A DNA stretch of 64,000 nt from Algoriphagus sp. CAU 1675. GTDB lineage: Bacteria > Bacteroidota > Bacteroidia > Cytophagales > Cyclobacteriaceae. Shown in pieces: positions 2,551 to 34,507 of the stretch. The position numbers were made by a program, and so were the translations under genes. The stretch is taken from the NCBI RefSeq assembly GCF_029222925.1, contig NZ_JARHUI010000002.1:62001-126000 (forward strand), read 5' to 3'. The notes beneath the pieces were generated by a model, which saw only the letters and a program-made list of their open reading frames with translations, ran no database searches and was not told the origin of the DNA. How positions within the stretch are numbered: position 1 is the first letter of the stretch; each line of letters begins with the position of its first letter.

Positions 2551-3309
2551 ATGAAGCATAAGACTGTCCTCATTACAGGAGGAGCGAGCGGAATAGGCCA
2601 GGCAATGGTCAGAAAATTTGCCGCCGAAGGTTGTTTGGTACATTTCATTGATACCAATCACGCCGAAGGAGTCAAACTCCAGTTCGAAGAACATGAAAAA
2701 GGCCTGCATGTCAAGTTCCATGAAGGAGACATCACAGACTACAATCAAGTAGAGAACATCATCCAATCCATCCCCGGAAAACTGGACGTATTGATTAATA
2801 ATGCCGGCGTTTCCCACATAGGAAAGGCCGAATCCACCTCAGGAGAAGACTTTGACAGGGTATTTCAGGTAAATGTCAAAGGGATGTTCCATTGCATCAA
2901 AGCCGCCCTTCCCAAATTGAAAGAAAATGGAGGAGGCTCCATTTTAAACATGGCCTCCGTGGCAGCCACCATAGGTATCCCGGACAGATTTGCCTACAGT
3001 ATGACTAAAGGCGCTGCTCTTTCCATGACCCTAAGCGTGGCTCGGGATTATGTTCAGGATGGCATTCGCTGCAACTGCCTTTCGCCCGGAAGAGTGCATA
3101 CTCCATTCGTCGATGGGTTCCTAGCTAAAAATTATCCAGGACAAGAAAAGGAAATGTTTGATAAACTGGCAGCAACCCAACCTATTGGAAGGATGGGAAC
3201 TCCAGCTGAAATCGCTGAATTGGCCTTTTTTGTAAGTTCGGATGCGGGTAGCTTCATCACAGGAGCCAATATCCCAATTGACGGGGGATTCTTGGGGCTT
3301 AAAATGTAA
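2551..3309 (+). CDS. SDR oxidoreductase, probable 2-keto-3-deoxy-L-fuconate (or -rhamnonate) dehydrogenase
   Basis: 252 residues, a classical short-chain dehydrogenase: TGGASGIGQA cofactor loop, NNAGVS, catalytic Ser in NMASVAA, and YSMTKGA (YxxxK). Asp in HFIDTN after beta-2 suggests NAD rather than NADP. The C-terminal stretch CNCLSPGRVHTPFVDGF resembles BDH2-like dehydrogenases that oxidise 2-keto-3-deoxy sugar acids. It is the first gene of the operon and sits beside a fumarylacetoacetase-family hydrolase, the next enzyme in that route. The ATG at 2551 is chosen over an upstream TTG at 2530. Substrate (fuconate versus rhamnonate series) is inferred from the neighbours. Confidence 0.85.
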   Translation: MKHKTVLITGGASGIGQAMVRKFAAEGCLVHFIDTNHAEGVKLQFEEHEKGLHVKFHEGDITDYNQVENIIQSIPGKLDVLINNAGVSHIGKAESTSGEDFDRVFQVNVKGMFHCIKAALPKLKENGGGSILNMASVAATIGIPDRFAYSMTKGAALSMTLSVARDYVQDGIRCNCLSPGRVHTPFVDGFLAKNYPGQEKEMFDKLAATQPIGRMGTPAEIAELAFFVSSDAGSFITGANIPIDGGFLGLKM

Positions 3310-3381
3310 ATTCCTCTTCTGCAGAAACCAACAACATTAAATCTTAAAACATCAATTCTCAATACCTAAAAAAACCTATAT

Positions 3382-4242
3382 ATGAAACTAATTCGATTTG
3401 GAGAAGCCGGACAGGAAAAGCCTGGGGTTCTGGACGAAAATGGAAAATATCTGGACTGTAGTTCTTTTGGTGAAGATTGGAATGAAACATTCTTCACAAA
3501 CGAAGGATTGGAAAGACTTTTGGTTTGGCTACATGCCAATCAAAAAAACTTGCCTGAGATTCCAGCTGGGTCAAGAATCGGATCTCCAATAGCGAGACCA
3601 TCCAAAATTCTATGCATTGGCCTAAATTATAGAAAACATGCCGCGGAAGCAGGAATGGCAGTTCCTGAAGTACCCATCGTTTTTATGAAAGCCACTTCTT
3701 CCCTATCCGGTCCTTATGACCCGGTGTTTATACCCAAAAATTCAGTAAAAACCGACTGGGAAGTAGAACTCGCGGTCGTAATCGGAAAAAGAGCCAAATA
3801 TGTCAGTAAAGAAGAGGCCATGGATTATGTCGCGGGCTATTGTCTCCACAATGATGTCAGTGAACGGGATTTCCAATTGAATCACGGGGGCCAGTGGGTC
3901 AAAGGAAAAAGTGCAGATCACTTTGCTCCTTTAGGCCCTGTACTTGCCACCAAGGATGAAATCCCCGATCCTCACAACTTAAGACTTTGGCTCAAACTCA
4001 ATGGAGAAATGCTGCAGGACAGCAATACCTCTGATCTGATTTTCGATATCCCAACCATTGTTTCTCATCTTTCCCAATACATGACCCTACTTCCCGGTGA
4101 TGTGATTTCCACAGGAACACCAGCAGGTGTAGGGATGGGGCTAAATCCCCCCACCTACCTGAAAGACGGAGATGTCATGGAACTTGGAATTGATGGTTTG
4201 GGCAGTTCCAAGCAGGTGGCAGTCAATGATCCTGAAGCATGA
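3382..4242 (+). CDS. FAH-family hydrolase, probable 2,4-diketo-3-deoxy-L-fuconate hydrolase
   Basis: 286 residues, fumarylacetoacetate hydrolase fold. ILCIGLNYRKHAAEAG opens the FAH domain near residue 75. Metal ligands are expected in DWEVELAVVIG and in the HNDVSERDFQ region, and GDVISTGTPAGVGMG is the typical C-terminal motif. In the non-phosphorylating fucose/rhamnose pathway this enzyme splits the diketo acid into pyruvate and lactate. The stop overlaps the next start by 4 bp (ATGA), so it is translationally coupled to the lactonase. Family certain, exact substrate inferred. Confidence 0.87.
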   Translation: MKLIRFGEAGQEKPGVLDENGKYLDCSSFGEDWNETFFTNEGLERLLVWLHANQKNLPEIPAGSRIGSPIARPSKILCIGLNYRKHAAEAGMAVPEVPIVFMKATSSLSGPYDPVFIPKNSVKTDWEVELAVVIGKRAKYVSKEEAMDYVAGYCLHNDVSERDFQLNHGGQWVKGKSADHFAPLGPVLATKDEIPDPHNLRLWLKLNGEMLQDSNTSDLIFDIPTIVSHLSQYMTLLPGDVISTGTPAGVGMGLNPPTYLKDGDVMELGIDGLGSSKQVAVNDPEA

Positions 4243-5066
4243 AAATTGACGCCCATCAGCACTTCTGGCAGTTCGATCCTGTAAGGGATTCCTGGATCAC
4301 AGAGGACATGGGGCGAATCCGGAGAAACTTCCTTCCGGAGGACCTTTACCCCTTGCTCAAAAGCAGTGGAATAGAGGCCTGTATTGCTGTGCAGGCAGAT
4401 ACAAGCTTGAGAGAAACAGACTTCTTGCTGGATTTGGCAGGGCAGTACAGCTGGATTTCGGGGGTAGTTGGTTGGGTGGACCTAAGTAGCCTAAACCTGG
4501 ACCAGACATTAGAGGTTTATTCCGGGAATTCTAAACTATTGGGCTTTCGGGAAATCTTACAGAGCAAAGACCCTCAGTTTATGCTGAGAGAAAAATTCAT
4601 CCAAGGAATTCAAGCCATAGGAAAAAAGGGATACACCTATGATATTTTGGTGTATCCCCACCACCTTTCTGCAAGCCTAGAGCTGGTCAAAAAATGTCCA
4701 AACCAAAAATTCGTGATCGATCATTTGGCCAAACCCTATATCAAGGACAAGGAATGGAAGGAATGGAAAAAAGCCATGCAGCCTATAGCTGAAAGGGAGT
4801 TGGTCTATTGCAAGGTTTCGGGAATGGTGACGGAGGCCGATTGGAAAAACTGGACTGAAGATGACCTTGCCCCTTACCTGGAAATTGCATTGGAGCTCTT
4901 TGGTCCTGACCGCCTGATGTATGGAAGTGACTGGCCTGTATGTCTCCTTGCCGGGGAATACGGACAGGTTTATGAAGTCATTCAAAATTGGACATCTCGT
5001 CTGAGCAAATCGGAGCGGGATAGAATTTTGGGAGAAACAGCAGCCGAATTCTACCATATCTACTGA
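4239..5066 (+). CDS. Amidohydrolase-family sugar lactonase, probable L-fuconolactonase
   Basis: 275 residues of the amidohydrolase_2 family. IDAHQHFW gives the N-terminal HxH metal motif. EACIAVQADTSLRET, FVIDHLAKP and YGSDWPV (the late Asp) are hallmarks of the L-fuconolactonase/L-rhamnono-lactonase group. It hydrolyses the lactone produced by the sugar dehydrogenase to the open acid. It overlaps the FAH gene by 4 bp and is followed 54 bp later by the second SDR gene, with a small hairpin between. The enzyme class is clear; fuconolactone is favoured because FucP is encoded next door. Confidence 0.87.
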   Translation: MKIDAHQHFWQFDPVRDSWITEDMGRIRRNFLPEDLYPLLKSSGIEACIAVQADTSLRETDFLLDLAGQYSWISGVVGWVDLSSLNLDQTLEVYSGNSKLLGFREILQSKDPQFMLREKFIQGIQAIGKKGYTYDILVYPHHLSASLELVKKCPNQKFVIDHLAKPYIKDKEWKEWKKAMQPIAERELVYCKVSGMVTEADWKNWTEDDLAPYLEIALELFGPDRLMYGSDWPVCLLAGEYGQVYEVIQNWTSRLSKSERDRILGETAAEFYHIY

Positions 5067-19631: not shown

Positions 19632-22600
19632 ATGATTTTCTTCTTTGAATCACCTCAGAAACTCGTTTACGCAGTTCAAACCCCACAGCCCTTCGCTTCC
19701 GAAGACATCGAAAAACTCACCTGGTTATTTGGCGGTGCCAAGGCGCTAGCAGCCTCATCCCTTGCCGGAAAATTCTCCGGACCGCGAAAGGAAATGATCA
19801 CCCCTTGGTCCACCAATGCCGTAGAAATCACCCTAAACATGGGAATTCCGGGCATTCAGAGAATTGAGGAGTTCAACCCTATGCAGGAAGGAGACGAAAT
19901 CGACCCCATGCTTCAAAAAGCATACGAGGGTCTGGACCAGGATATTTTCGACATCCATCTCCAGCCGGAACCAATTCAGGAGATCACGGACATCGAAAGC
20001 TACAACAAGCAGGAAGGGCTGGCTCTGAGCGAGGAAGAGGTACAATACCTTCAAAAAGTTTCTTCCCAATTGGGCAGACCACTGACTGATTCGGAAGTAT
20101 TTGGCTTTTCTCAGGTGAATTCCGAGCATTGCCGTCACAAAATTTTCAACGGGACCTTTGTCATCGATGGAGAGGAGAAGCCGATGACGCTTTTCCAATT
20201 GATCAAGGAAACTTCCAAGAAGCATCCCAACCGGATCGCATCCGCATACAAGGACAATGTAGCCTTTATCAAAGGCCCATCCGTCCAGCAATTTGCCCCA
20301 AAAACCCAGCACCAGGCTGACTTTTTTGAAACCCGGGACATTGACACCGTGATTTCCCTAAAAGCAGAAACCCATAACTTCCCTACCACTGTGGAGCCTT
20401 TCAACGGAGCTGCAACAGGATCCGGCGGGGAAATCCGGGACCGTATGGCAGGAGGAACAGCCTCCATTCCATTGGCAGGAACTGCGGTCTACATGACTTC
20501 CTATTCCCGAAGCGAAAAGGACAGAAGCTGGGAAAAAAATCTTCCTGAGCGTCCATGGCTCTATCAAACTCCAATGGACATTCTGATCAAGGCTTCCAAT
20601 GGAGCTTCTGATTTTGGAAACAAATTCGGACAACCTCTGATTTCTGGTTCTCTTTTGACCTTTGAGCATGAGGAAGGCGACAAACAATACGGTTTCGACA
20701 AAGTCATTATGCTAGCTGGCGGTGTTGGTTTTACCAATGCCAAATACACCAAAAAAGGAGAACCGGAAAAAGGCGATCAGATCGTCATCATGGGCGGAGA
20801 CAATTACCGAATTGGTATGGGTGGATCGGCTGTATCTTCTCTCAACACCGGTGAACTTTCCAATGCCATAGAACTTAACGCCATCCAGCGTTCCAATCCG
20901 GAAATGCAAAAGCGGGTTTCGAATGTGATCCGGGCCATGGCAGAAAATGAGAACAATCCCATCATTTCCATTCATGACCACGGAGCTGGCGGACATCTCA
21001 ACTGCCTTTCCGAATTGGTGGAAAACACTGGAGGAACTATTCATATTGACAAGCTCCCTATCGGGGACCCTACCCTCTCTGCCAAGGAAATCATCGGCAA
21101 TGAGTCTCAGGAACGAATGGGACTGGTAGTGGGTAAAAAAGACATAGATACCCTCAAGCAACTTTCCGACCGGGAAAGAGCTCCTTTCTACGTAGTGGGT
21201 GAGACCACCGGAGACATGCATTTCAAGTTTGAGAATGAGAAAACAGGTGAAAAACCGGTGGACTGGAACTTGATGTACATGTTCGGATCTTCTCCGAAAA
21301 CCGTATTGGAAGACAAGACTTCTGTTTCTTCCTTCTCAGAAGGCAGCTACGACAACATGAAGCTGAAAACCTACATCAAGGAAGTGCTTCAGTTGGAGGC
21401 CGTGGCCTGTAAGGACTGGTTGACCAATAAAGTGGACCGATCTGTGACAGGACGTGTAGCCACCCAACAGACTGTTGGCAAAATACAACTCCCATTGAAT
21501 GACGTGGCTGTCATGGCTCTGGACTTCACCGGAAACAAAGGAATTGCAACTTCCATTGGACATGCTCCGGTTGCAGCTTTGGCCAACCCTGAAGCAGGAA
21601 GCCGACTTGCGATCGCCGAGGCAATGACCAATTTGGTTTTTGCTCCGATTGCAGATGGCATGCAGGGGATTTCCCTGAGCGCCAACTGGATGTGGCCTGC
21701 TAAAAACGAAGGGGAAAACGACAGACTGTATAGAGCGGTTCAGGCAGTATCCGATTTTGCCATTGAATTGGGTGTGAATATCCCAACCGGAAAAGATTCC
21801 CTTTCCATGACTCAAAAATATCCCGACGGAAAAGTGGTCTACTCTCCGGGGACGGTGATCATCTCTACCGTTGGGGAGTGCAGCGATATCAACAAAACGG
21901 TGAAAGCCGCGCTGAAGCCTGTCAAGGGTTCCAAGGTATTTTACCTGGACTTCTCCAAAGATGCCGCCAAACTGGGAGGTTCCAGTTTCTATCAGGTACT
22001 CAACAAGATCGGAAACGAGACTCCTACTGTTCAGGACGCAGCATACTTTAGCAAGGCATTTATGACCGTGCAGAAGCTCATCGAACAGGGGCTTATTCTG
22101 GCAGGGCACGATATTTCCTCCGGTGGCATCATTACGGCATTGCTGGAAATGTGCTTCCCGGGAACCCATACCGGATTGAAAGTGAAAACCGGAAGACTGA
22201 AAGAAAGAGACCTGATTAAGGCCTTGTTCTCCGAAAATCCGGGCATCCTCATCCAAGTTTCTGAAGTAGAGAAAGTCAAATCCATCTTGGCTAATTTCGA
22301 GGTAGACTACATTTCTCTGGCAGATGTGACCTTGGATGGAAAAGTTGACTTGGATGAGGCAGGTTTGGTTCTGGATGTAGCTGAAATGCGGGACACCTGG
22401 TATCGATCTTCCTACCTATTGGACAGAAGACAAAGTGGGGAAAAACTTGCCAAAGCCCGTTTTGAAAACTATAAAAACCAACCACTTATTTACGATTTTG
22501 AAGAAGGATGGCAAGGACGCTTCGAGGAAGCAGGTATTGATCCCTTCCGAAAAAATACCGGAAAGGCCAAAGCCGCTATCATCCGTGAAAAAGGAGTGAA

Positions 22601-23312
22601 TGGAGACCGCGAGATGGCCTATTCCCTCTGGTTGGCTGGTTTCGAGGTGAAGGACGTCCACATGACCGACCTGATCTCCGGACGTGAAAATCTGGAAGAT
22701 GTGCAGATGATCGTCTTTGTGGGTGGGTTCTCCAACTCTGACGTATTGGGTTCTGCCAAAGGCTGGGCCGGTGCCTTCCTGTACAACCCTAAAGCCAAGC
22801 AGGCCCTGGATAACTTCTATGCAAGACCTGACACCCTGAGTTTGGGGGTGTGCAACGGATGCCAGCTGATGATTGAGCTTGGACTGGTCACTGCAGACCA
22901 CGACCAAAATCCGAAAATGCTCCACAATGAAAGCCACAAGTTCGAATCCGGGTTTGTGAACGTATCCATTCCTCAAAACAACTCCGTTATGCTGGGTAGC
23001 CTCAGCGGACAGAGACTGGGCGTTTGGGTAGCGCATGGAGAAGGTAAGTTCTCCCTTCCAAAAGAAGCTTCTGAATACAACTTCGCCATGAAATACAGCT
23101 ATGATGCCTATCCAGGAAATCCGAATGGGTCGGATCATTCCACTGCAGGGATTGCTTCCGCAGATGGAAGACACCTGGCAATCATGCCACATATTGAGCG
23201 AAGCATTAAGCCTTGGAACTGGGCCCATTACCCATCCGATCGTCAGGATGAGTTCACCCCTTGGCTGGAAGCCTTTGTGAATGCAAGAAAATGGGTGGAA
23301 GAGCAGCTGTAA
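19632..23312 (+). CDS. purL: Phosphoribosylformylglycinamidine synthase, single-chain
   Basis: 1226 residues, the large single-chain form that fuses PurS-like, synthase and glutaminase domains. Synthase motifs: FSQVNSEHCRHKIFNG, LKAETHNFPTTVEPFNGAAT (substrate and Mg site), GGSAVSSLNTGE and HDHGAGGHLNCLSELVE. The C-terminal glutamine amidotransferase has nucleophile Cys in LGVCNGCQLMIELG and the His/Glu pair in IMPHIERS. It converts FGAR to FGAM with glutamine and ATP in purine synthesis. It carries its own promoter and ends at a strong terminator. Confidence 0.97.
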   Translation: MIFFFESPQKLVYAVQTPQPFASEDIEKLTWLFGGAKALAASSLAGKFSGPRKEMITPWSTNAVEITLNMGIPGIQRIEEFNPMQEGDEIDPMLQKAYEGLDQDIFDIHLQPEPIQEITDIESYNKQEGLALSEEEVQYLQKVSSQLGRPLTDSEVFGFSQVNSEHCRHKIFNGTFVIDGEEKPMTLFQLIKETSKKHPNRIASAYKDNVAFIKGPSVQQFAPKTQHQADFFETRDIDTVISLKAETHNFPTTVEPFNGAATGSGGEIRDRMAGGTASIPLAGTAVYMTSYSRSEKDRSWEKNLPERPWLYQTPMDILIKASNGASDFGNKFGQPLISGSLLTFEHEEGDKQYGFDKVIMLAGGVGFTNAKYTKKGEPEKGDQIVIMGGDNYRIGMGGSAVSSLNTGELSNAIELNAIQRSNPEMQKRVSNVIRAMAENENNPIISIHDHGAGGHLNCLSELVENTGGTIHIDKLPIGDPTLSAKEIIGNESQERMGLVVGKKDIDTLKQLSDRERAPFYVVGETTGDMHFKFENEKTGEKPVDWNLMYMFGSSPKTVLEDKTSVSSFSEGSYDNMKLKTYIKEVLQLEAVACKDWLTNKVDRSVTGRVATQQTVGKIQLPLNDVAVMALDFTGNKGIATSIGHAPVAALANPEAGSRLAIAEAMTNLVFAPIADGMQGISLSANWMWPAKNEGENDRLYRAVQAVSDFAIELGVNIPTGKDSLSMTQKYPDGKVVYSPGTVIISTVGECSDINKTVKAALKPVKGSKVFYLDFSKDAAKLGGSSFYQVLNKIGNETPTVQDAAYFSKAFMTVQKLIEQGLILAGHDISSGGIITALLEMCFPGTHTGLKVKTGRLKERDLIKALFSENPGILIQVSEVEKVKSILANFEVDYISLADVTLDGKVDLDEAGLVLDVAEMRDTWYRSSYLLDRRQSGEKLAKARFENYKNQPLIYDFEEGWQGRFEEAGIDPFRKNTGKAKAAIIREKGVNGDREMAYSLWLAGFEVKDVHMTDLISGRENLEDVQMIVFVGGFSNSDVLGSAKGWAGAFLYNPKAKQALDNFYARPDTLSLGVCNGCQLMIELGLVTADHDQNPKMLHNESHKFESGFVNVSIPQNNSVMLGSLSGQRLGVWVAHGEGKFSLPKEASEYNFAMKYSYDAYPGNPNGSDHSTAGIASADGRHLAIMPHIERSIKPWNWAHYPSDRQDEFTPWLEAFVNARKWVEEQL

Positions 23313-25984: not shown

Positions 25985-26235
25985 GCTCTATCCCGGCAAA
26001 ACCTAGAAAATACGGCTCTCTCCCACTATTTCGGGTAAAACCCTTGCAGGAACACTTTCACTTCCGGAAGGATCTGGCAGCAAGCAAGTCCAAAAAGCAG
26101 GAGGTTATTTTGTTAGAAGGATTAAATCATTTATTTCAGGAAAGCAAAACAGGTCATCTTTCTGAATACCCTCAAATTGAACAAACATTTGCACCTGTGG
26201 CTTTAGAAAAAATCAGTAATTGGATAATAGAATAA
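25985..26235 (+). pseudogene. Remnant of an alpha/beta-hydrolase (C-terminal end only)
   Basis: The frame from about 25984 to 26235 is open, and its last 50 residues (KKQEVILLEGLNHLFQ, then GHLSEYPQIEQTFAPVALEK and ISNWI) match the invariant end of secreted alpha/beta-hydrolase/S9-type peptidases, including the catalytic His in GLNHLFQ. Nothing upstream encodes the rest of the domain, since the preceding reading is the membrane-protein gene. No ATG precedes it; only a TTG at 26044. I take it as the 3' tail of a deleted gene. Confidence 0.65.
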
Positions 26236-26254
26236 CCCAACTAGAATTTGTCTC

Positions 26255-26617
26255 ATGAAAGTGAATTTGAAAGAAAAATTCTCCAAAATCAATCAGCACT
26301 GGCATCCCTATATCATAGGGGAGTTAAATGAAAACTATGTAAAGCTGGCAAAGCTTAAAGGAGAATTGGTATGGCATAGCCATCAGGAAGAGGACGAGAT
26401 GTTTGTCGTGGTGAGTGGCACGCTAATGATGGACTTTAGAGATGGAAAAACAATCCAAACAGAACCAGGAGAGATTTTAATTGTGCCAAAAGGAGTGGAA
26501 CACAAACCATGGACCCAAGATGAAGAAGTTTTGGTAATGCTTATAGAACCCAAGACCACCCTTCATACCGGTGATCTTAAAGTCGAGCAAACGATAGAAA
26601 AATTGAATTGGATATAA
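26255..26617 (+). CDS. Cupin-domain protein
   Basis: 120 residues, one small cupin barrel. Motif 1 is WHSHQEEDEMFVVVSG (His, His, Glu metal ligands) and motif 2 is PGEILIVPKGVEHKPW (His). It could be an isomerase, dioxygenase or sensor; the substrate is unknown. It sits just after the hydrolase remnant and ends at a hairpin terminator shared with the convergent remnant gene. Confidence 0.85.
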   Translation: MKVNLKEKFSKINQHWHPYIIGELNENYVKLAKLKGELVWHSHQEEDEMFVVVSGTLMMDFRDGKTIQTEPGEILIVPKGVEHKPWTQDEEVLVMLIEPKTTLHTGDLKVEQTIEKLNWI

Positions 26618-26631
26618 GGTAAGGCAATAGT

Positions 26632-26668
26632 AAAAAAACCGGGCGAATCGACTTCTACCCGGTTTTTT
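26632..26668. terminator. Bidirectional terminator
   Basis: Stem of A-run plus CCGGG (26632-26643) against CCCGG plus T-run (26658-26668) with a 14-nt loop. Flanking A and T runs make it work on both strands, for the cupin gene (+) and the remnant at 26689-27192 (-). Confidence 0.85.
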
Positions 26669-26688
26669 CATTTCTATCGATTCAAGGA

Positions 26689-27192
26689 TTAACGCCCGAA
26701 TTTTTTAGCGGTCTCTATTACTCCCCTATAGACATTTTTGCCCTCTTCCAGAACCTTCAGCACTTCCTGCTTTTGCTCTTCTGAGTAGAACAAACCTTTG
26801 GTGTTGACCCACTCTTCCAACTGTTCCGTAATTTCAATAAACCTTTCTGCTGGTTCGGACATGCCGGCTGGCCTTCCCTTGAAATTGACAAAGACAGGAT
26901 TGGAATGGGCTCCGTTCGTCCTAACAGCCAAACAGCCGGAGTCTTCAAGGATGATCGTTTCATTCATACTTGTCCCTGATTGGATCACCTTCCCATTGAA
27001 GACAATTTCCACCGGCAATTCTCCTTCAGGAGAAAGAGCTTTTGCAGAGATTTCAAGCTTTGCTTTTTTGCCATTGACATTGAATTTTGTTCCTGCCAAT
27101 TGCCCATTTACGGTAAAAAACAGCATTGGCCCTTTGGTAATAAAGCTTCTACCTCCTTTGCTTTGACAAACCTTAAAAAGTGAAAAAACCAT
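26689..27192 (-). pseudogene. Remnant of a CehA/McbA-type metallohydrolase (C-terminal part)
   Basis: 167 residues that look like the end of a larger protein: GGRSFITKGPMLFFTVNGQL, SGCLAVRTNGAHSNPVFVNF and KGRPAG followed by an acidic helix occur at the C-terminus of PHP-like CehA/McbA metallohydrolases. The metal-binding N-terminal domain is absent. The sequence upstream on the minus strand (27193-27326) does not encode it, and there is no signal peptide. Either a decayed gene or a stand-alone relic domain; I favour decay. Confidence 0.55.
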
Positions 27193-27326
27193 TGCTTAAA
27201 AAATAAAAGCCACCTATTCTCCGACACTTTTTTTATCTCACTTTTCTGGTTAATTTATTGAACGGGGTTAGGAAATTTTCAAATCCTTGGGGCAATCGAG
27301 TTTCCTTAAAAACGTCTTATTTGAAA

Positions 27327-28175
27327 ATGGGAGCAATAAATAATCCTGCCGAAATGCGCAAAAGAGTATATAGGCACATGCTCGAAACGAGGGGCTGGAA
27401 ATACCGTGTGTTTCTCCGCTACCTACGAGTTTTTAAGTATGCTGCTTTTGCACCAACAAGAGGTGAATTCCTGGAATCCTACTATGTTTTGATGCGCTAT
27501 CTGGATGATATTGTGGACGGAGATGCTCCCCTTCCTGAAGGCTATCATTCTGCAAGTGATTACCTATTGGGCAAAATTAAATTCTCGAAAAACCCAATTG
27601 ACCCAAAAGACGAGGTGGATCATTTGATGAGCTATTGCTTTGACTTGGCAAAAAAGTTCGGGGAGGAATTTAATAACGAGACTGAGGACATCTTGAATTC
27701 CCTGCTTTTCGATGCCAACAGAAGAGGAAAAATGATCATTTTCCCCAAAAAGGATTTGATGCATCACTTCCACCTGCTGGACATCAGGGGAACAATCAAA
27801 GCCACCTTGAAAGTATTCAATGATGACCCTGAAAAATACCTGCTGCTGGAGCCGCTTGGGATTGCATGCCGCTACCAGTTCGATATAGAAGATATAGAAA
27901 CAGATCTGGCAGTTGGTTTCGTGAATATTTCAAAAGAGGAATGTGAGCAATTCGGAATAGACCAGGAAGATCTGAAGAATCCGAATTCATTGAAGCTCAA
28001 AAAATGGTTGAGGCAAAGAGCAAAGGACGGATTGCTCCTTCTTGAAGAACACCACCGCAGAATCCCGGAAGGCAATTTTTCCTTGCTTGAAAGAATGACC
28101 TTTTCATTGGTCTATGAAAATCCAGCCCGGAAAGTTTTTGAAAAAGTAATCTCAGACACCAAAACCATCGCGTAA
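27327..28175 (+). CDS. Divergent squalene/phytoene synthase-like protein
   Basis: 282 residues from the ATG at 27327; a TTG at 27258 would add 23 residues without family character. All-helical head-to-head prenyl synthase fold. The first Asp-rich motif is YLDDIVDGD (Asp 60, 61, 64), where the family has YxDDIVDD. The second is RYQFDIEDIETDLAVGF (Asp 189 and 193), where the family has NxxRDxxED followed by GRxYLP. The second motif is altered (Arg to Glu, Gly-Arg to Gly-Phe), so the condensation chemistry or substrate may differ from squalene or phytoene formation. First gene of a five-gene operon; the next start is 1 bp after its stop. Confidence 0.8.
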   Translation: MGAINNPAEMRKRVYRHMLETRGWKYRVFLRYLRVFKYAAFAPTRGEFLESYYVLMRYLDDIVDGDAPLPEGYHSASDYLLGKIKFSKNPIDPKDEVDHLMSYCFDLAKKFGEEFNNETEDILNSLLFDANRRGKMIIFPKKDLMHHFHLLDIRGTIKATLKVFNDDPEKYLLLEPLGIACRYQFDIEDIETDLAVGFVNISKEECEQFGIDQEDLKNPNSLKLKKWLRQRAKDGLLLLEEHHRRIPEGNFSLLERMTFSLVYENPARKVFEKVISDTKTIA

Positions 28176-28176
28176 A

Positions 28177-28992
28177 ATGGGAAGATCTGATTTTCATCTG
28201 GAAAAATGGTACCTCGATTTTGTGGGCAGGAATGGTGAAATCATGATCTTTTATGCAGCTAAATTATCGTTCAAAAGCATTACAGTACACTACGCAAGTT
28301 GGATAAACTACCAAACCCAAAGTGGACTAAAAGTGGAGTCGCACTTTAGACATGTCAATCTTCCGGAGAAGAAAGGCAATCTGATTACCTGGAAAAACGA
28401 CGCTTTCCAAATTTCTGGAAGTTGGCAAGCTATATCCACACCGATTCAGGCACGGATAGTTGAGGATCACCAAGGCTACCTGGATTGGAACTGTTTCCAG
28501 CCAGCATCCAATGTCCAGTTAAAAATCAAGGACAAAACTCTTGAAGGCACAGGTTACGCCGAACTATTAACTCTGACCACCTATCCTTGGAACATCCCCA
28601 TGAATCACCTCCGTTGGGGAAGGTTTCATTCCTTTCAGGATACTTTGGTCTGGATTGAACTGAGAGGAGACCAAAAGCAGCAATGGGTATGGCTCAATAG
28701 AAAAAGGCTTTCCGAATGTACCATTGAGAACGATCAACTTTCCTCAACAGAAGAGGGCTTTTCACTCACATTCGATCGCGGGATTGTACTGGAATCCGAA
28801 AAGAAAATAGGGAGTGTTGTCAAAAATATTTTGCGCTTTATCCCGGGATTCAATCATCTGATGAACCAAAATTTCCTTACCGCAACCAACCACAAATGGT
28901 TTAGCAAGTGCGAATTTCAAAAAAAGGGATGTTCCACTGTCCAAGGTTCAGCCATTCACGAATGGGTAAACTTTAACTCCGATACCCCATGA
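28177..28992 (+). CDS. CrtC/lipocalin-like protein, possible terpenoid hydratase or carrier
   Basis: 271 residues, beta-rich, no signal peptide. FHLEKWYLDFVGRNGEIMIFY opens like CrtC/AttH-type lipocalin-superfamily proteins. The segment GTGYAELLTLTTYPW followed by LRWGRFHS matches the half-repeat in which such proteins carry a G-x-G-Y/W motif before a WGR sequence. CrtC hydrates carotenoid ends, and relatives cyclise terpenoids. Placed between a prenyl-synthase-like gene and an ABC exporter, it may modify or hold an isoprenoid. It overlaps the ABC gene by 4 bp. Family assignment is moderate; the role is inference. Confidence 0.55.
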   Translation: MGRSDFHLEKWYLDFVGRNGEIMIFYAAKLSFKSITVHYASWINYQTQSGLKVESHFRHVNLPEKKGNLITWKNDAFQISGSWQAISTPIQARIVEDHQGYLDWNCFQPASNVQLKIKDKTLEGTGYAELLTLTTYPWNIPMNHLRWGRFHSFQDTLVWIELRGDQKQQWVWLNRKRLSECTIENDQLSSTEEGFSLTFDRGIVLESEKKIGSVVKNILRFIPGFNHLMNQNFLTATNHKWFSKCEFQKKGCSTVQGSAIHEWVNFNSDTP

Positions 28993-29588
28993 TTTTAGAA
29001 GTGAAAAATATTGAAAAGGCTTTTGGAAGAAAACCCGTTTTGAAGGACATCAATTTCTTGTTGGAGCCCGGTTCTATTACGGGAATAGTCGGAGAAAATG
29101 GGTCGGGAAAAACCGTCCTAATGGAAATAATCGTTGGGGTGAAAAAGGCTCAAAAAGGAAAAGTCCACATCAATGGAAAACTGGGATATTGCCCTCAGAA
29201 AGCAATGCTCTTCTCACATCTGACTGTAAAAGAGCATTTTGATTATTTTTCAATTGCCTATGAACTCGATAAGACTCAATCGAAATTGAGAACTGAGGAG
29301 TTGCTGGACCATTTCAATTTCGGAAAGTACAAACAGGAACGAATAATCAACCTAAGCGGGGGGACACAACAGAAACTCAACCTCTCACTGGCCCTTCTCC
29401 ATCAACCCAACTTACTGATTCTTGATGAGCCATACAATGGATTTGACTGGGAGACCTATGAACGATTTTGGAACTATACTACTACATTAAAAAACCAAGG
29501 TTGTGCCATCCTAATCGTCACTCATTTGTTGAGCGAAAAAGTAAGACTTGACCGCATTTATAAACTCGAAAACGGGATTCTGGTATGA
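28989..29588 (+). CDS. ABC transporter ATP-binding protein
   Basis: 199 residues, one complete but short NBD: Walker A GENGSGKT, Q-loop in GYCPQKAM, signature LSGGTQQKLNLSLAL, Walker B LLILDEPYNGFDWET and H-switch VTHLL. It powers the permease encoded next (4-bp overlap). It resembles ATPases of two-gene ABC-2 exporters. Position in a prenyl-synthase operon suggests export or membrane translocation of a lipid product. Confidence 0.93.
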   Translation: MILEVKNIEKAFGRKPVLKDINFLLEPGSITGIVGENGSGKTVLMEIIVGVKKAQKGKVHINGKLGYCPQKAMLFSHLTVKEHFDYFSIAYELDKTQSKLRTEELLDHFNFGKYKQERIINLSGGTQQKLNLSLALLHQPNLLILDEPYNGFDWETYERFWNYTTTLKNQGCAILIVTHLLSEKVRLDRIYKLENGILV

Positions 29589-30346
29589 GCGTCAAGAAAA
29601 TCACCACGGGCGTTTCAATGATTTTGCGGATGCTAGTCCGGCAAAAAATAGTGATCCTGTTAATTCTGGTCATCCCGGCTTTTTTCTTAACCATTGTTGA
29701 ACTTACTTCCTCGGATCGAATTCTACCATTTCAACTTGCCTCTGTTGGGGAGGATATTTTTGTAAACATCAGTGAAAATGGCATCTCCTTTATTTTTTTC
29801 TCAGTTGCCTCCTCTGGTTTTTTGGTTTCATTCTTAGCTCTCAATCTGATTCAAAAAAACAACCTGGTAAACCGTCGACTCATCATTTGCGGATACCACC
29901 CGGTAGAATTGCTTCTCTCGATTTTAACAGTATTGGTTTTAGTGATCACCTTTATCGCCGTCTATGTTGGTCTTCTCACCAATGCCTTTTACTCCATCGA
30001 GCACCTTGAAAAATTTATTCTGGGTTTAGTCCTGATAGGGTTCGTGTATGGAAGTTATGGCCTTGCGGTTGGTAGTTTGATTAAAGGAGAATTAGAGGGG
30101 ATTTTGATGATTGTCTTGTTGGTAAACATTGATGTGGGCTGGCTACAGAACCCGCTTTTCTATGCCGAGGCGCAAAATCAAATCATTATCAAATTTCTCC
30201 CGGCTTACTTTCCTTCCCAAACCTGCATCATTACGGCAGTCACAGACTTTTCTTCTTCCTCATCAACGATGTACAGTTTAGCCTATGGATCAATATTTTT
30301 ATTTTTCTCTATGCTTACCTTTTTCTACAAAATGCGGACAAAATGA
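29585..30346 (+). CDS. ABC-2-type permease
   Basis: 253 residues with about six transmembrane helices (first at 20-40, then around 62-85, 105-125, 133-160, 165-190 and 230-250) and a periplasmic loop after helix 1. This is the layout of ABC-2 exporter subunits. It overlaps the ATPase gene by 4 bp and the following gene by 4 bp. No family signature identifies the cargo. Confidence 0.8.
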   Translation: MSVKKITTGVSMILRMLVRQKIVILLILVIPAFFLTIVELTSSDRILPFQLASVGEDIFVNISENGISFIFFSVASSGFLVSFLALNLIQKNNLVNRRLIICGYHPVELLLSILTVLVLVITFIAVYVGLLTNAFYSIEHLEKFILGLVLIGFVYGSYGLAVGSLIKGELEGILMIVLLVNIDVGWLQNPLFYAEAQNQIIIKFLPAYFPSQTCIITAVTDFSSSSSTMYSLAYGSIFLFFSMLTFFYKMRTK

Positions 30347-32217
30347 AAACTGGAAAAACACTCTTGAACAAGATATTTTATGCTCTCACGTTTCTGGTCC
30401 TTATTCCTGCATTACTCTGGTTTTGGGCAAAAAAAACTGAAGATTTTATAAATCTGCCTGTTATTGATTCCATCGGATCGGGTTGGTTTTTGATCATTTT
30501 AGGAGGCTTACTCATGCTTTGGGCGATGTATAGTTTAAAGAAATTCGGGAAAGGTCTGCCCATGAATGCCTTTCCGCCCAAAAATTTTGTCACAAAAGGG
30601 CCTTATCATTTTCTCCGACATCCAATTTATATCGGATTCGGCCTATTTCTCACGGGATATTTTATTGTAACCCAATCGCCAAGTGGTCTTTGGTTCGTCA
30701 CCCCAATAACCCTGCTGGCCATGGTCGCTCTTGTGCTGGGGTATGAATCCATTGATTTGAAAGAACGGTTTCCTGATGAATCCTTCCGGGTCCTTTTAGA
30801 CCTTCCTGAAAACAGAGAAGCTCCTGCGAGTACAAAGGATAGACTTGTAGCTTTATTTTGGGCGGCATTGAGCTTGGGAGCAAGCAATTACATCATTGCT
30901 TTGTTGGTTGGAAGCTCAACTCCACTTTTCGGCAAACCCTGGGTTTTGGGATCCATTTCCGAAAACATCCAATTTCTTCTCCTTCCGACTTTACTTTTAC
31001 TGACCATGCCTTTCCTTCTCAAAAGGAAGGATATTTTGCGTAATTGGTCCTATTCAGGTCTAATTGCCCTTGCAGTCTCCACTTTTTTGGCCTTGCTATA
31101 TCCGAAAATTGGAGCCCAATTTTTCCCAATAGAGCAAATGCCTGTTTACACAGTTCCTATTTTCATGCTTTTACTTTCCGTAAAATCTGCTTTTCAACAA
31201 GATCAAAGGCTAGGCTTTTTGGTTGGTTTGATCACAGCAGGTTTGCTGGCCATAGAAGTTTCGTTTAGCCGTTCGGCAATACTCCATGTTTTCACTTCAA
31301 TTTTCCTATTCCTAATTGGAGGCTATTATTTCCAAATCTGGATTTTCTTAAAAAACACTGCGGAAAAAATCGCCAATTCATGGCAGGAATGGATTTTTGG
31401 AAAGGTAAGGGTCATCAACCATGGCTTTTATGTTGGTTTTGGTTCCTTCTTCGGAATTGCACTTGCCGGGTATTTAGTAGGGGATGCTTATTCCTGGGCA
31501 ATTTTAATGTTTGCCTTTGTGGTCATTATATTTTCAGCCCTCTGGGCCCAGATCATAGAAGGGTCGGAAAAACTGAAACGACCTTTTGGGTATTACGGGG
31601 CTTTGGTTGGGATAATTTTCGCCAGTACCGTGGTTTGGGCATTAGGGTTTGATGTTTGGGTGATCATTGGAGTGATTTCCGTAGTGATGCCATGGGTACA
31701 AGGAATCGGTCGTTTTCGCTGTTTGGTAAATGGTTGCTGTCATGGAAGCAAGGTCCCAGACCCCAACATCGGGATTCGTTATTTTCATGAACGTTCCCGA
31801 GTTTGTGGCATTTCACATCTAAAAGGAGAACTAATACACCCAACCCCATTGTATTCAATAATTTGGCTCTTCTGGGCGGGTTTTATACTTCTCTCACTCT
31901 GGCGAAATGGCTTTTCTCCTTCCTTCATTTTCGGCAGTTATTTGATTCTAAACGGGATAGGACGCTTTGTAGAGGAAGCCTACCGGGGTGAGGTTCAAAC
32001 ACCGATTTTAAAAGGCCTTAGGCTATATCAATGGACCGCCATTCTATCCGTCTTGATAGGAATCAGCATGACCATGATCCCAATTTCTGTGGAATTGAAC
32101 CCATCATCCTTTGGCTGGCAAACGATTCTTTCTGCGATTTCCGGTGGCTTATTTACGGCTTTTGCGATGGGGATAGATTTCCCGTTTTCCAATGCCCGTT
32201 TCTCCAGACTGGTGTGA
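30343..32217 (+). CDS. Multidomain membrane protein: ICMT-like methyltransferase fused to an Lgt-like domain
   Basis: 624 residues, about 16 membrane helices. The N-terminal quarter has GPYHFLRHPIYIGFG (near 86-100) and LGYESIDLKERFP, the signature of isoprenylcysteine carboxyl methyltransferase/PEMT enzymes. The C-terminal third has GRFRCLVNGCCHG (near 456-468), HPTPLYSI, LNGIGRFVEEAYRGEV and GLRLYQW, the pattern of Lgt (prolipoprotein diacylglyceryl transferase) paralogues. The middle has a stretch (ending SFSRSAILHVFTSIFLFLIGG) that may be a degenerate PAP2 phosphatase, a weak guess. It likely modifies a membrane lipid or isoprenoid made by this operon. Last gene of the operon. Confidence 0.8.
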   Translation: MKTGKTLLNKIFYALTFLVLIPALLWFWAKKTEDFINLPVIDSIGSGWFLIILGGLLMLWAMYSLKKFGKGLPMNAFPPKNFVTKGPYHFLRHPIYIGFGLFLTGYFIVTQSPSGLWFVTPITLLAMVALVLGYESIDLKERFPDESFRVLLDLPENREAPASTKDRLVALFWAALSLGASNYIIALLVGSSTPLFGKPWVLGSISENIQFLLLPTLLLLTMPFLLKRKDILRNWSYSGLIALAVSTFLALLYPKIGAQFFPIEQMPVYTVPIFMLLLSVKSAFQQDQRLGFLVGLITAGLLAIEVSFSRSAILHVFTSIFLFLIGGYYFQIWIFLKNTAEKIANSWQEWIFGKVRVINHGFYVGFGSFFGIALAGYLVGDAYSWAILMFAFVVIIFSALWAQIIEGSEKLKRPFGYYGALVGIIFASTVVWALGFDVWVIIGVISVVMPWVQGIGRFRCLVNGCCHGSKVPDPNIGIRYFHERSRVCGISHLKGELIHPTPLYSIIWLFWAGFILLSLWRNGFSPSFIFGSYLILNGIGRFVEEAYRGEVQTPILKGLRLYQWTAILSVLIGISMTMIPISVELNPSSFGWQTILSAISGGLFTAFAMGIDFPFSNARFSRLV

Positions 32218-32355
32218 TTTTTTTCCAAAATGAAGATTGAAATGGAAGGGATTTCAAAAAGGGGGAGAAAACCAATCTTTAACTGATTTCAGAAAATTTA
32301 AAGGTGAATGAACTGTCTTATTTTTCATTTTGATAGTCCTTATTAACTTAACTTA

Positions 32356-33162
32356 ATGAAACGTCGGCCTTTCCTCCAAAAACTCAGCCTCATTGGCTCC
32401 ACTTTAATGACCATGCCATTTATCACCTATGGGAAAATGGAATTCCCAAAAGCTACACGACTCAAATTCATCACTGCTTCCGATGGACATTATGGACAGC
32501 CGGATACAGATTTTGAAAGTTCTCACCGCCAACTGATAGATGCGATCAACCGGGAACAGGGAGTGGATTTTGTGGTATTCAACGGGGACTTGATCCATGA
32601 TGACCCCAAGTGGATGCCGGAGGTAAAAAAAGTATATGATCAGTTGAACTACCCCTATTATGTATGCAGGGGAAACCATGATCGAGTAACCAAAGAAGCC
32701 TGGCTTCAGATCTGGGACCAACCTGAAGATTTTGCCTTTGTAGAAAAAGAAGACAAGGGAATTATTCTGCTTAATTGTTCCAATGAAGCTGGAGAATACC
32801 TATGCGCAGATCTGGCATTTCTAAAAGCCAAACTGGAGGAGTTTAAGCAACTTTCCCAGGTATTTGTTTTTGTCCATATTTCTCAAAACGACTGGACCAG
32901 GCATGGAGTAGCCTGCGAGGAAATCCTAGACGAAATCGCAGCTTATCCAAATGTAAAGGCTACTTTCCATGGCCATGATCATGATGTGGATGGGATCATG
33001 CTTCGAAAGAAAAAGGCCTTCCTCTGGTCTGGACACTTTGGTGGAAGTTGGGGAAACCCCTTCCCTTCCTACCGTGTCTGTGAAGTGGGGGAAGATGGGA
33101 AAACCATTTCCTACCTTAAGACGGTAAAAGATGGAACCATCCTGAATGGACATACACTTTGA
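32356..33162 (+). CDS. Exported calcineurin-like metallophosphoesterase
   Basis: 268 residues. The N-terminus MKRRPFLQKLSLIGSTL resembles a Tat signal (RRxFLQ). Metal motifs: ASDGHYG (D-x-H), FNGDLIHDD (GDxxHD), CRGNHDR (GNHD), VFVHIS (late His) and HGHDHD (GHxH). It is a dimetal phosphoesterase acting outside the cytoplasm. It is monocistronic or followed 58 bp later by an MgtC-type gene. Substrate unknown. Confidence 0.9.
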   Translation: MKRRPFLQKLSLIGSTLMTMPFITYGKMEFPKATRLKFITASDGHYGQPDTDFESSHRQLIDAINREQGVDFVVFNGDLIHDDPKWMPEVKKVYDQLNYPYYVCRGNHDRVTKEAWLQIWDQPEDFAFVEKEDKGIILLNCSNEAGEYLCADLAFLKAKLEEFKQLSQVFVFVHISQNDWTRHGVACEEILDEIAAYPNVKATFHGHDHDVDGIMLRKKKAFLWSGHFGGSWGNPFPSYRVCEVGEDGKTISYLKTVKDGTILNGHTL

Positions 33163-33220
33163 CCCTGAATACAGCTAAAGGCATTAATTCTGCTTTTCGA
33201 CGACAAAACCAACCCTTCTT

Positions 33221-34507
33221 ATGGAAAGCCTGCTGATAGACACCGAAACCTTCCGCTTGACCCAGGGGGAGTTTATCCTAAGGTTATTGGTTGCAATGGG
33301 GATTGGTGCGGTCATTGGACTGGAGAGGCAGCATGCTGCATTTCTTGAAAAGGTCACCGGATTTGCAGGAATCCGTTCATTTGTCTTTGTGACCCTTTTG
33401 GGTTTCATGGCAGGCCTGACTTATTTTCTTCTTTCCCCTTGGGTGTATTTGGGAATTTTGATTTCCGTTGCCATCCTTACCGGGGTATCCTATTGGGTCA
33501 CGGCAACTAAAGGAGACATAGGATCTACTACTGAATTTTCAGTGTTGATCAGTTTTGTCCTTGGCACCTTGGCTTTTCTCGGTATCATCGAGCTCAGTCT
33601 GATGATCATGGTATTGGTGGTGGTATTCCTCTCTTCCAAATTCAGATTTATCAGGATCATCGGTAAAATCACTCCTGACGAGCTTTATGCCTTTATTCGG
33701 TTTGTGGTCATAGCCTTGTTGGTTTTCCCCTTCCTTCCGGATCAAACTTTTGGACCCTATCAAGTTCTCAATCCTCGAGAAGTCGGCTGGGTAATAATCC
33801 TGACCTCCGGTTTGGGATTTTTGGGATATATCCTGATCAAGTTTCTTGGAGCTCAAAAAGGAATTCTCTTGAGTGGGATTTTGGGAGGCTTGGTCTCCAG
33901 TACTGCGACTACTTGGATATTTGCCAAAAAAAGTAAAGAAAGCCCCAGGTATTCCTCCAGTTGCTCAGTTGCCATCATGGCCTCCTCCTCCATTATGATT
34001 TTGCGGGTGATGCTGTGGACCTTTGTTTTCAACAAGGGACTCTTCAACGACCTTTACCTTGAGTTTTTCCTGGTCTTTCTGAGTGGGTTTGGCATGACCA
34101 TTTTCTATTTTTTCAAACAAAAGGAAAAGAAGCAAGTGAAGACCGAATTACCGGAAGGCAAACCTCTGGACATACCCGGGGCCCTTATGTTTGGATTGAT
34201 TTATGTTGCCATCCTATTGATTGTGAGCTATGCAAATGAAAACTTAGGGGAGCGGGGAATCCTGATCTCCAGTGCTATTGCCGGTCTGACCGATATTGAT
34301 GCCATTACCATCACGGTCTCCAAGCTTGCGGACCTGAAACTGGATTATTCCATCGCCTTTGTGGCACTATTGATTTCCTCTATTTCCAATACCATTTTCA
34401 AATTTGCGATCGGAGCCTGGGCAGGAAGCTCTGCACTCAGAAAGGATTTGTTTTGGGGATATGGGGCATTTTTTTTAGCAGCCTTATTGGTTTTGGTATT
34501 TAGATAA
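33221..34507 (+). CDS. MgtC/SapB family membrane protein with DUF4010
   Basis: 428 residues, about 12 hydrophobic helices. The N-terminal MgtC-like part has LLVAMGIGAVIGLERQ and AGIRSFVFVTLLG; the C-terminal half is DUF4010-like (GALMFGLIYVAILLIV, GLTDIDAITITVSKLA). Such proteins are thought to be membrane regulators or ion-related transporters, with no proven activity. Start ATG at 33221. Confidence 0.87.
   Translation: MESLLIDTETFRLTQGEFILRLLVAMGIGAVIGLERQHAAFLEKVTGFAGIRSFVFVTLLGFMAGLTYFLLSPWVYLGILISVAILTGVSYWVTATKGDIGSTTEFSVLISFVLGTLAFLGIIELSLMIMVLVVVFLSSKFRFIRIIGKITPDELYAFIRFVVIALLVFPFLPDQTFGPYQVLNPREVGWVIILTSGLGFLGYILIKFLGAQKGILLSGILGGLVSSTATTWIFAKKSKESPRYSSSCSVAIMASSSIMILRVMLWTFVFNKGLFNDLYLEFFLVFLSGFGMTIFYFFKQKEKKQVKTELPEGKPLDIPGALMFGLIYVAILLIVSYANENLGERGILISSAIAGLTDIDAITITVSKLADLKLDYSIAFVALLISSISNTIFKFAIGAWAGSSALRKDLFWGYGAFFLAALLVLVFR

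Follow-up and report, generated by a model that had tools for sequence, protein, structure and literature searches.

We analysed a 64,000-nucleotide stretch of DNA from Algoriphagus sp. CAU 1675 (contig NZ_JARHUI010000002.1, positions 62,001 to 126,000; hereafter the window), which carries an operon of five genes, here named g1 to g5. Gene order, protein families, folds, invariant sites and co-occurrence in other genomes were computed for this operon. The genes occupy positions 27327-32217 of the + strand with intergenic gaps of +1, -4, -4 and -4 bases; this co-directional arrangement, described in an initial annotation of the stretch, was confirmed from the open reading frames (ORFs). The upstream neighbour is encoded on the opposite strand; downstream, g5 is followed by the next gene after 138 bases. 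Our preferred reading, which we place slightly short of an even chance, is that the operon directs the biosynthesis and export of an isoprenoid-derived membrane lipid. The enzyme folds involved are all known; the g5 fusion appears undescribed in the open-licence PMC literature, as do the g2 family and the pathway. In line with the initial annotation, no described pathway with this combination of genes was found there. A passage of PMC12419801 mentions both Lgt and PAP2, in contexts different from this one.

Features of the operon, with the two CrtC-type comparison proteins (g1 to g5 in window coordinates; L125 and L126 in the coordinates of their own loci)
Feature	Position	Strand	Description
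g1	27327..28175	+	divergent squalene/phytoene-synthase-fold prenyl enzyme, 282 aa
g2	28177..28992	+	lipocalin-like, CrtC/AttH/Diels-Alderase fold, 271 aa, core gene
g3	28989..29588	+	ATP-binding cassette (ABC) transporter ATPase, 199 aa
g4	29585..30346	+	predicted membrane partner of g3; 253 aa with 5 hydrophobic stretches; a family of its own
g5	30343..32217	+	fusion of methyltransferase (ICMT/PEMT), decayed PAP2 and Lgt-like domains, 624 aa, core gene
g5 methyltransferase domain	30481..30735	+	residues 47-131, PEMT/ICMT
g5 middle region	30820..31365	+	about residues 160-341 (limits approximate); relatives have a PAP2 domain here, whose catalytic motifs the window copy has lost
g5 Lgt-like domain	31576..32076	+	residues 412-578, LGT 4.4e-21
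CrtC-type proteins	L125 4788-5858; L126 4787-5866		beside a family 2 (GT2) glycosyltransferase

Family searches of g1 to g5 covered Pfam and NCBIfam, the latter adding only matches under its cut-offs. The initial annotation had read g1 as squalene/phytoene synthase-like, g2 as CrtC-like, g3 as an ABC nucleotide-binding domain, g4 as an ABC-2 permease and g5 as a protein with ICMT/PEMT and Lgt-like domains. These assignments are borne out for g1, g2, g3 and g5. The permease label for g4 fits its pairing with an ATPase gene, although g4 matches no family. An ancestral PAP2 domain in g5 had been overlooked, as had recurring partner genes for a LysA-like decarboxylase, a sulfotransferase, radical S-adenosylmethionine (SAM) proteins and one cytochrome P450.

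The g5 product matches the Pfam families PEMT (6e-11), ICMT (1.4e-5) and LGT (4.4e-21). We aligned 72 members of its family, comprising the window copy and 71 of 77 ORFs of 600-690 amino acids; six ORFs were left out by hand (L039, L041, L092, L093 and two of L080; L denotes loci and G genomes), and the alignment does not include the off-length g5 proteins of L054, L059, L063 and L108 or those of L029 and L036. LGT and PEMT match all 72 members, ICMT matches 53 and PAP2_3 matches 37. In the methyltransferase domain P94, Y96 and E135 are kept in 72/72 and H93 in 70/72, giving an RHPxY-type motif and a downstream Glu, which we take to be SAM-binding. HPIY and the downstream Glu are shared with the ICMT/PEMT methyltransferases, from which g5 differs in being a multi-domain fusion.

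The LGT match of g5 reaches 75.8 bits against a cut-off of 24.9 with the core signature present, and the family profile aligns with the Lgt structure 5azb (E 3.9e-7); the NCBIfam equivalog for housekeeping Lgt gives 55.9 bits against a cut-off of 334. In hmmsearch the aligned part of this domain is mainly C-terminal. Residues G456, R457, C460, G464, C465, C466, H467 and G468, together with R541, E544, E545, R548, E550 and Q552, are invariant (72/72). The GR, RF.EE and Q elements shared with Lgt are joined in most members by HPT.LY. Unlike Lgt, g5 carries a GCCHG signature, has Tyr where the aligned Lgt chain has His and is fused to methyltransferase and PAP2 domains, and the host carries its own Lgt. 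Because the genome holds a separate full Lgt and a separate full CrtB besides the operon, we rejected the identification of g5 as the housekeeping Lgt and of g1 as the housekeeping CrtB.

The catalytic H...H...D motifs of PAP2 are lost in the window copy and intact in 39 of the 72 aligned proteins. None of these 39 is accompanied by g1 and two are accompanied by the ABC pair, whereas the 33 proteins with lost motifs include 17 with g1 and 22 with the ABC pair. On a quick tree built without the PAP2 columns, PAP2 state requires two changes, one for a clade of 32 that includes the window and one for L096. We do not claim that PAP2 was functionally replaced by the ABC pair or g1, as the contrast comes down to essentially a single clade and independent pairs provide no test of it. 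Since the Lgt-like and methyltransferase residues are invariant, both outer domains of g5 look active, and PAP2 looks dispensable in the window's clade. As a separate observation, L080 holds upstream of g2-g5 a 609-residue membrane-like ORF (2915-4741) with another Lgt-like domain. A broadened g5 profile gives it 205 bits and the profile of the g5 alignment only 37 (profile positions 438-595); it appears to be some other protein with an Lgt domain and not a further g5.

Canonical Lgt and ICMT both act on lipidated cysteine, and the occurrence of LGT and PEMT in one chain in all 72 proteins, with ICMT in 53, would suit a pathway of S-lipidated cysteine, with formation of a thioether lipid assigned to the Lgt-like domain and methylation of the cysteine carboxylate to the ICMT-like domain, a bacterial analogue of CAAX processing. 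We regard this as improbable: the operon has no peptide gene, a pattern scan of short ORFs in window positions 26000-33600 returned six matches and no convincing CAAX or lipobox precursor among them, and g1 and g2 would be left unexplained.

The other core gene, g2, has no match in Pfam or NCBIfam for its window copy, and no convincing Pfam match of any kind was found among 67 aligned members (66 of 68 ORFs, without L076 and L089, plus the window copy). Its relationship to CrtC is visible only through profile and fold comparison. The protein has a lipocalin-like CrtC/AttH fold, with CrtC, a lipocalin-like Diels-Alderase, AttH, kievitone hydratase and 25-phosphosteroid lyase as fold kin, at 7-11% identity to the solved structures of this fold. 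In passages of PMC8449060 and PMC11061730, 25-phosphosteroid lyase is the name for phosphate removal from an isoprenoid side chain. The g2 profile also aligns with CrtC-type proteins that match annotated carotenoid 1,2-hydratases beside crtD. A passage of PMC4717167, which gives PF07143 as the CrtC Pfam family, reports that Ala mutants of His239, Trp241, Tyr266 and Asp268 in RgCrtC are inactive. We placed the catalytic positions of g2 by hhalign to annotated CrtCs showing HxW and YxD, not to RgCrtC itself; Trp and Tyr are kept in 67/67, and the acid is Glu in 66 and Asp in one. The protein is set apart from CrtC by the loss of the His equivalent and by its occurrence almost only with g5.

Two Bacteroidota proteins, L125 and L126 (in G236 and G267), gave weak matches to the g2 profile and are called CrtC-type because of their relation to plasmid genes annotated as carotenoid 1,2-hydratase beside crtD; L126 shares 22-32% identity with such genes, several of which lie beside crtD. 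The Pfam Diels-Alderase N-domain matches L126 (1.3e-6) and, just below the cut-off, L125 (1.1e-5), and neither protein matches the CrtC Pfam family at 0.01. A GT2 gene adjoins both, and L125 also has an acyltransferase neighbour. The gene cruF is described as evolutionarily distant from crtC in a passage of PMC10784355.

A public genome scan with the g5 alignment confirmed 185 relatives. Record titles assign the carriers to Bacteroidota (with Ignavibacteriae), Acidobacteria, Planctomycetota, Verrucomicrobia, Gemmatimonadota, Zixibacteria/GN15 and Proteobacteria. Most are metagenome-assembled genomes (MAGs), in which binning errors are possible; named strains include Arenibacter palladensis, Mangrovimonas sp. 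TPBH4, two Christiangramia, Ginsengibacter hankyongi, Labilibacter sediminis and Flavilitoribacter nigricans in Bacteroidota, and Actibacterium atlanticum and two Neisseria in Proteobacteria. The two Neisseria loci (L105 from N. wadsworthii and L110 from Neisseria sp. 83E34) consist of a g2-g5 pair with PAP2 motifs intact. Our locus counts rest on the best 80 of the 185 relatives plus the window, L029 and L036; the resulting 83 loci stem from fewer genomes, since L039, L040 and L041 all belong to a single MAG. Iterated profiles found g5 in 83 loci, g2 in 76, g4 in 29 and g1 in 20; contig ends may inflate the absences, so that these presence counts are lower bounds. An obligate linkage of all five genes, as first read into the operon, is not supported by the counts for g4 and g1.

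Conservation of the operon, for which a gene-neighbourhood check had been suggested, was nevertheless found. The order g1-g2-ABC-g4-g5 was returned by script for 14 of the 83 loci, window included, and is also present in L063, which the script passed over because its g5 ORF is called too long. The order g2-ABC-g4-g5 occurs in 21/83 loci, and g2 is the nearest labelled gene before g5 in 52/83. In L042 a decarboxylase gene stands between g1 and g2, and G462 keeps g2, g5, ABC and g4 in a different order. Among the carriers of the seven loci without g2, four genomes have a g2 match elsewhere (for L092 and L059 only at a contig edge), and three genomes with g5 have no g2 match genome-wide (those of L056, which is an isolate, L071 and L050).

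Within 395 genomes of the phylum, g5 is present in nine including the window's (eight full-length copies and the shorter one of G462), a tenth match in G135 being a lone methyltransferase. The g2 gene is found in the same nine, besides the weak CrtC-type matches in G236 and G267, and g1 in two, both with g5. Of 24 genomes picked for a locus without g1, 22 had no g1 anywhere and two had it elsewhere; many of these are MAGs, and one extra genome served as positive control. Distance matrices of g2 and g5 over the 61 loci present in both alignments correlate with r 0.91, against a maximum of 0.18 in 999 permutations, a correlation that shared descent explains in part. Chance adjacency of the genes is rejected by this correlation and by their recurrence across loci and genomes. 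A viral or plasmid origin was likewise rejected, a g5 search of viral contigs and plasmids having returned no relative.

Two unusual loci were also observed. In L067/L156 (G493:C38:49552-51278) ABC, g4 and g5 stand together and a g1-g2 pair is found on another contig, 211 bases short of its end; the L067 assembly holds one g5, and the case may represent a split operon or a second set cut by the assembly. A distant version in L036 (6417-12860) comprises g2, a P450 gene, a short g5 without PAP2, ABC, g4 and a LysA-like decarboxylase gene; no more relatives of this short g5 were found in 296 genomes, a set without G462, so that the result carries little weight.

The g1 product scores below the cut-off of Pfam SQS_PSY on its own (E 0.027, 14.6 bits against 26); across its family, SQS_PSY matches 10 of 17 proteins with an E value of 0.5 or lower, the best being 1e-7. 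The 17 proteins are 16 relatives and the window copy, L029 and the partial L039 and L063 being excluded; used alone, the g1 query found no relative in public genome contigs by a narrow pattern search. Both Asp-rich motifs (D60, D61, D64 and D189, D193) are invariant in 17/17. The best match among PDB sequences reaches only E 0.039. The predicted structure (predicted local distance difference test score, pLDDT, 89.8) has the all-helical fold of head-to-head prenyl synthases, its best fold matches being HpnC, CrtM and squalene synthases; the top scores are HpnC 20.9, CrtM-like 19.6, CrtM 18.6 and the carbazole prenyltransferase LvqB4 18.6. Identity to HpnC, CrtM, SQS and the SQS-like carbazole prenyltransferases LvqB4/CqsB4 is 11-17%, with a marginal sequence match, and near the second motif the N and R of the CrtM-like chain 8is6 are replaced by F/Y and E. 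With its score below the cut-off, g1 is filed as sharing the SQS_PSY fold, not as a member of the family, and it may catalyse head-to-head synthesis or prenylation of another acceptor.

Spheroidene synthesis uses a synthase, a hydratase and a methylase (CrtB-CrtC-CrtF), a set that our operon resembles. The operon could thus be a variant carotenoid pathway, with g1 as an extra phytoene synthase, g2 as a 1,2-hydratase and g5 as an O-methylase with an acyl anchor, a reading to which the alignment of g2 with CrtC-type proteins would lend itself. We give it very little credence. No desaturase was seen among the families recurring in at least four loci, the core is present without g1, and the operon has a PAP2/Lgt fusion and a predicted ABC exporter that distinguish it from the spheroidene-type pathway. 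The location of the host CrtB on another contig also speaks against this reading; its neighbours there, which read by eye as CrtI and lycopene cyclase, count in its favour.

The remaining two genes form a predicted ABC exporter, in which the ATPase g3 is clear (Pfam ABC_tran, 9.4e-29) and g4, which has no family match in Pfam or NCBIfam, is assigned by pairing and by its five hydrophobic stretches. The best NCBIfam matches of g3, all below cut-off, include the drug exporter DrrA and the lipopolysaccharide exporter LptB. These matches would fit a role of the ABC pair and the membrane enzymes in lipid-based resistance or envelope homeostasis instead of the making of a specific product, an explanation that we think has a slim chance because most loci retain g2 and g5 but lack the ABC pair.

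Several partner genes recur around the core. LysA-like decarboxylases dependent on pyridoxal phosphate (PLP) lie in or beside the operon in five of the 83 loci (L042, L051, L053, L064 and L036). A sulfotransferase gene follows g5 in L048, L049, L050, L058 and L059 (called by Pfam, in L059 by clustering), and in L049 (11890-13509) it is fused to an adenylylsulfate (APS) kinase, which suggests a sulfated product in that branch and fits the expectation for a tailoring pathway. Radical SAM/SPASM genes are found near the operons of L048, L049, L055, L056, L058 and L061 (Pfam was run on L049, L055 and L058), and a P450 gene in L036. Exchange of tailoring genes around a constant core is typical of biosynthetic clusters.

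The decarboxylases bear on a further alternative, an aminolipid head-group pathway without an isoprenoid core. The PEMT-type domain of g5 would N-methylate an amine, formed when the LysA-like partner decarboxylates an amino acid, and the Lgt-like domain would attach it to diacylglycerol; g2 would be a lipid binder or cyclase and g1 a late extra. We consider this pathway unlikely but a serious rival because g1 is often absent and a decarboxylase partner exists, and the PEMT match, which outscores ICMT in g5 and extends to 72/72 proteins, agrees with it. It accounts less well for g2, whose kin act on C=C bonds and which keeps the acid, Trp and Tyr, and for the retention of both Asp motifs in g1, and the decarboxylase is confined to the five loci named.

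An isoprenoid-derived lipid is the simplest reading because g1, g2 and the ICMT domain have isoprenoid-acting kin: ICMT, SQS/PSY and CrtC all act on isoprenoids. Also in its favour are the joint inheritance of g2 and g5, the Trp, Tyr and acid kept by g2, the invariant Lgt-like residues, and the separate host Lgt and CrtB. Lipid-group transfer, SAM methylation and export are predicted from the protein families. In this pathway, g1 would ionise an allylic prenyl diphosphate at its two Mg-binding Asp motifs and then yield a head-to-head product or prenylate an acceptor. In the soluble g2, Glu129 would protonate a C=C bond of the isoprenoid, helped by Trp104 and Tyr127, with a tertiary alcohol, a ring or the reverse elimination as the outcome. 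The ICMT/PEMT domain of the membrane protein g5 would methylate the product with SAM, and its Lgt-like domain would move a lipid group of the diacylglyceryl type to or from it; a PAP2-bearing g5 would also remove a phosphate, a step probably lost in the window's clade. Finally, the g3-g4 exporter would carry the product over the membrane. The isoprenoid substrate, the order of the steps, the group moved by the Lgt-like domain and export are what we infer here. The scheme first proposed, in which an isoprenoid is made, modified, moved and either joined to a lipid or changed on one, stands in part: the lipid step is reasonable from the Lgt-like domain, and the isoprenoid substrate is a prediction. 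A more specific proposal is possible, if doubtful, namely that about seven phyla use the core to make an undescribed class of lipid, in which an isoprenoid is methylated, hydrated or cyclised, and linked to a glycerolipid through Lgt-like transfer. Export, and tailoring that differs between lineages (by prenyl synthase, decarboxylase, sulfotransferase or P450), would complete this scheme.

Several observations weigh against an isoprenoid-derived product. The g1 gene is missing from most loci, and in these the isoprenoid substrate of the core would rest on the g2 fold, ICMT and PAP2. The PEMT score of g5 is better than its ICMT score. The CrtC Pfam family has no match at E 0.1 among the 67 g2 members, an equivalent of the catalytic His of CrtC is present in 0/67, so that the His-Trp-Tyr-Asp set is incomplete, and the fold is shared by fungal Diels-Alderases and kievitone hydratase, which act on substrates other than isoprenoid chains. 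In the isolate Ginsengibacter hankyongi (L056, 8989-11884) g1 adjoins g5 and no g2 was found at E 1e-5. The link between PAP2 loss and the gain of g1 and ABC is not independently replicated. The LysA-like decarboxylases suggest an amino-acid-derived part that the isoprenoid model leaves unexplained.

The GC content of the operon, 0.420, is ordinary beside 0.428 for the window. The nearest relatives of g5 are in Flavobacteriaceae and other Flavobacteriales MAGs, and no full-length g5 was found in 58 congeners, some of them incomplete. Together these two results suggest that the operon was horizontally acquired. A scan of 97 genomes gave 16 matches besides that in the host's own genome, all of them short methyltransferase matches. 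The gene that follows the operon (32356-33162) is present in 30 of 36 genomes of the genus, the host's included, and in L145, L146 and L147, out of five relatives examined, its homologue lies near that of 19632-23312 with no operon between them. Abutting the operon on the other side, a 167-residue ORF (26689-27192, - strand) matches part of a 754-residue frame in the congener G023 and nothing else among the 58 genomes; it appears to be what remains of a gene cut off at the edge of an insertion.

The recurrence of the two-gene core g2 and g5 in distant bacteria may point to an undescribed bacterial lipid. It ties an orphan family that has no Pfam entry to an unusual membrane enzyme of three domains (methyltransferase-PAP2-Lgt), and some of the carriers are isolates that can be cultured. 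Should the product prove to be a new lipid, Lgt chemistry would reach beyond lipoproteins, and the chemistry of the CrtC fold would reach membrane lipids.

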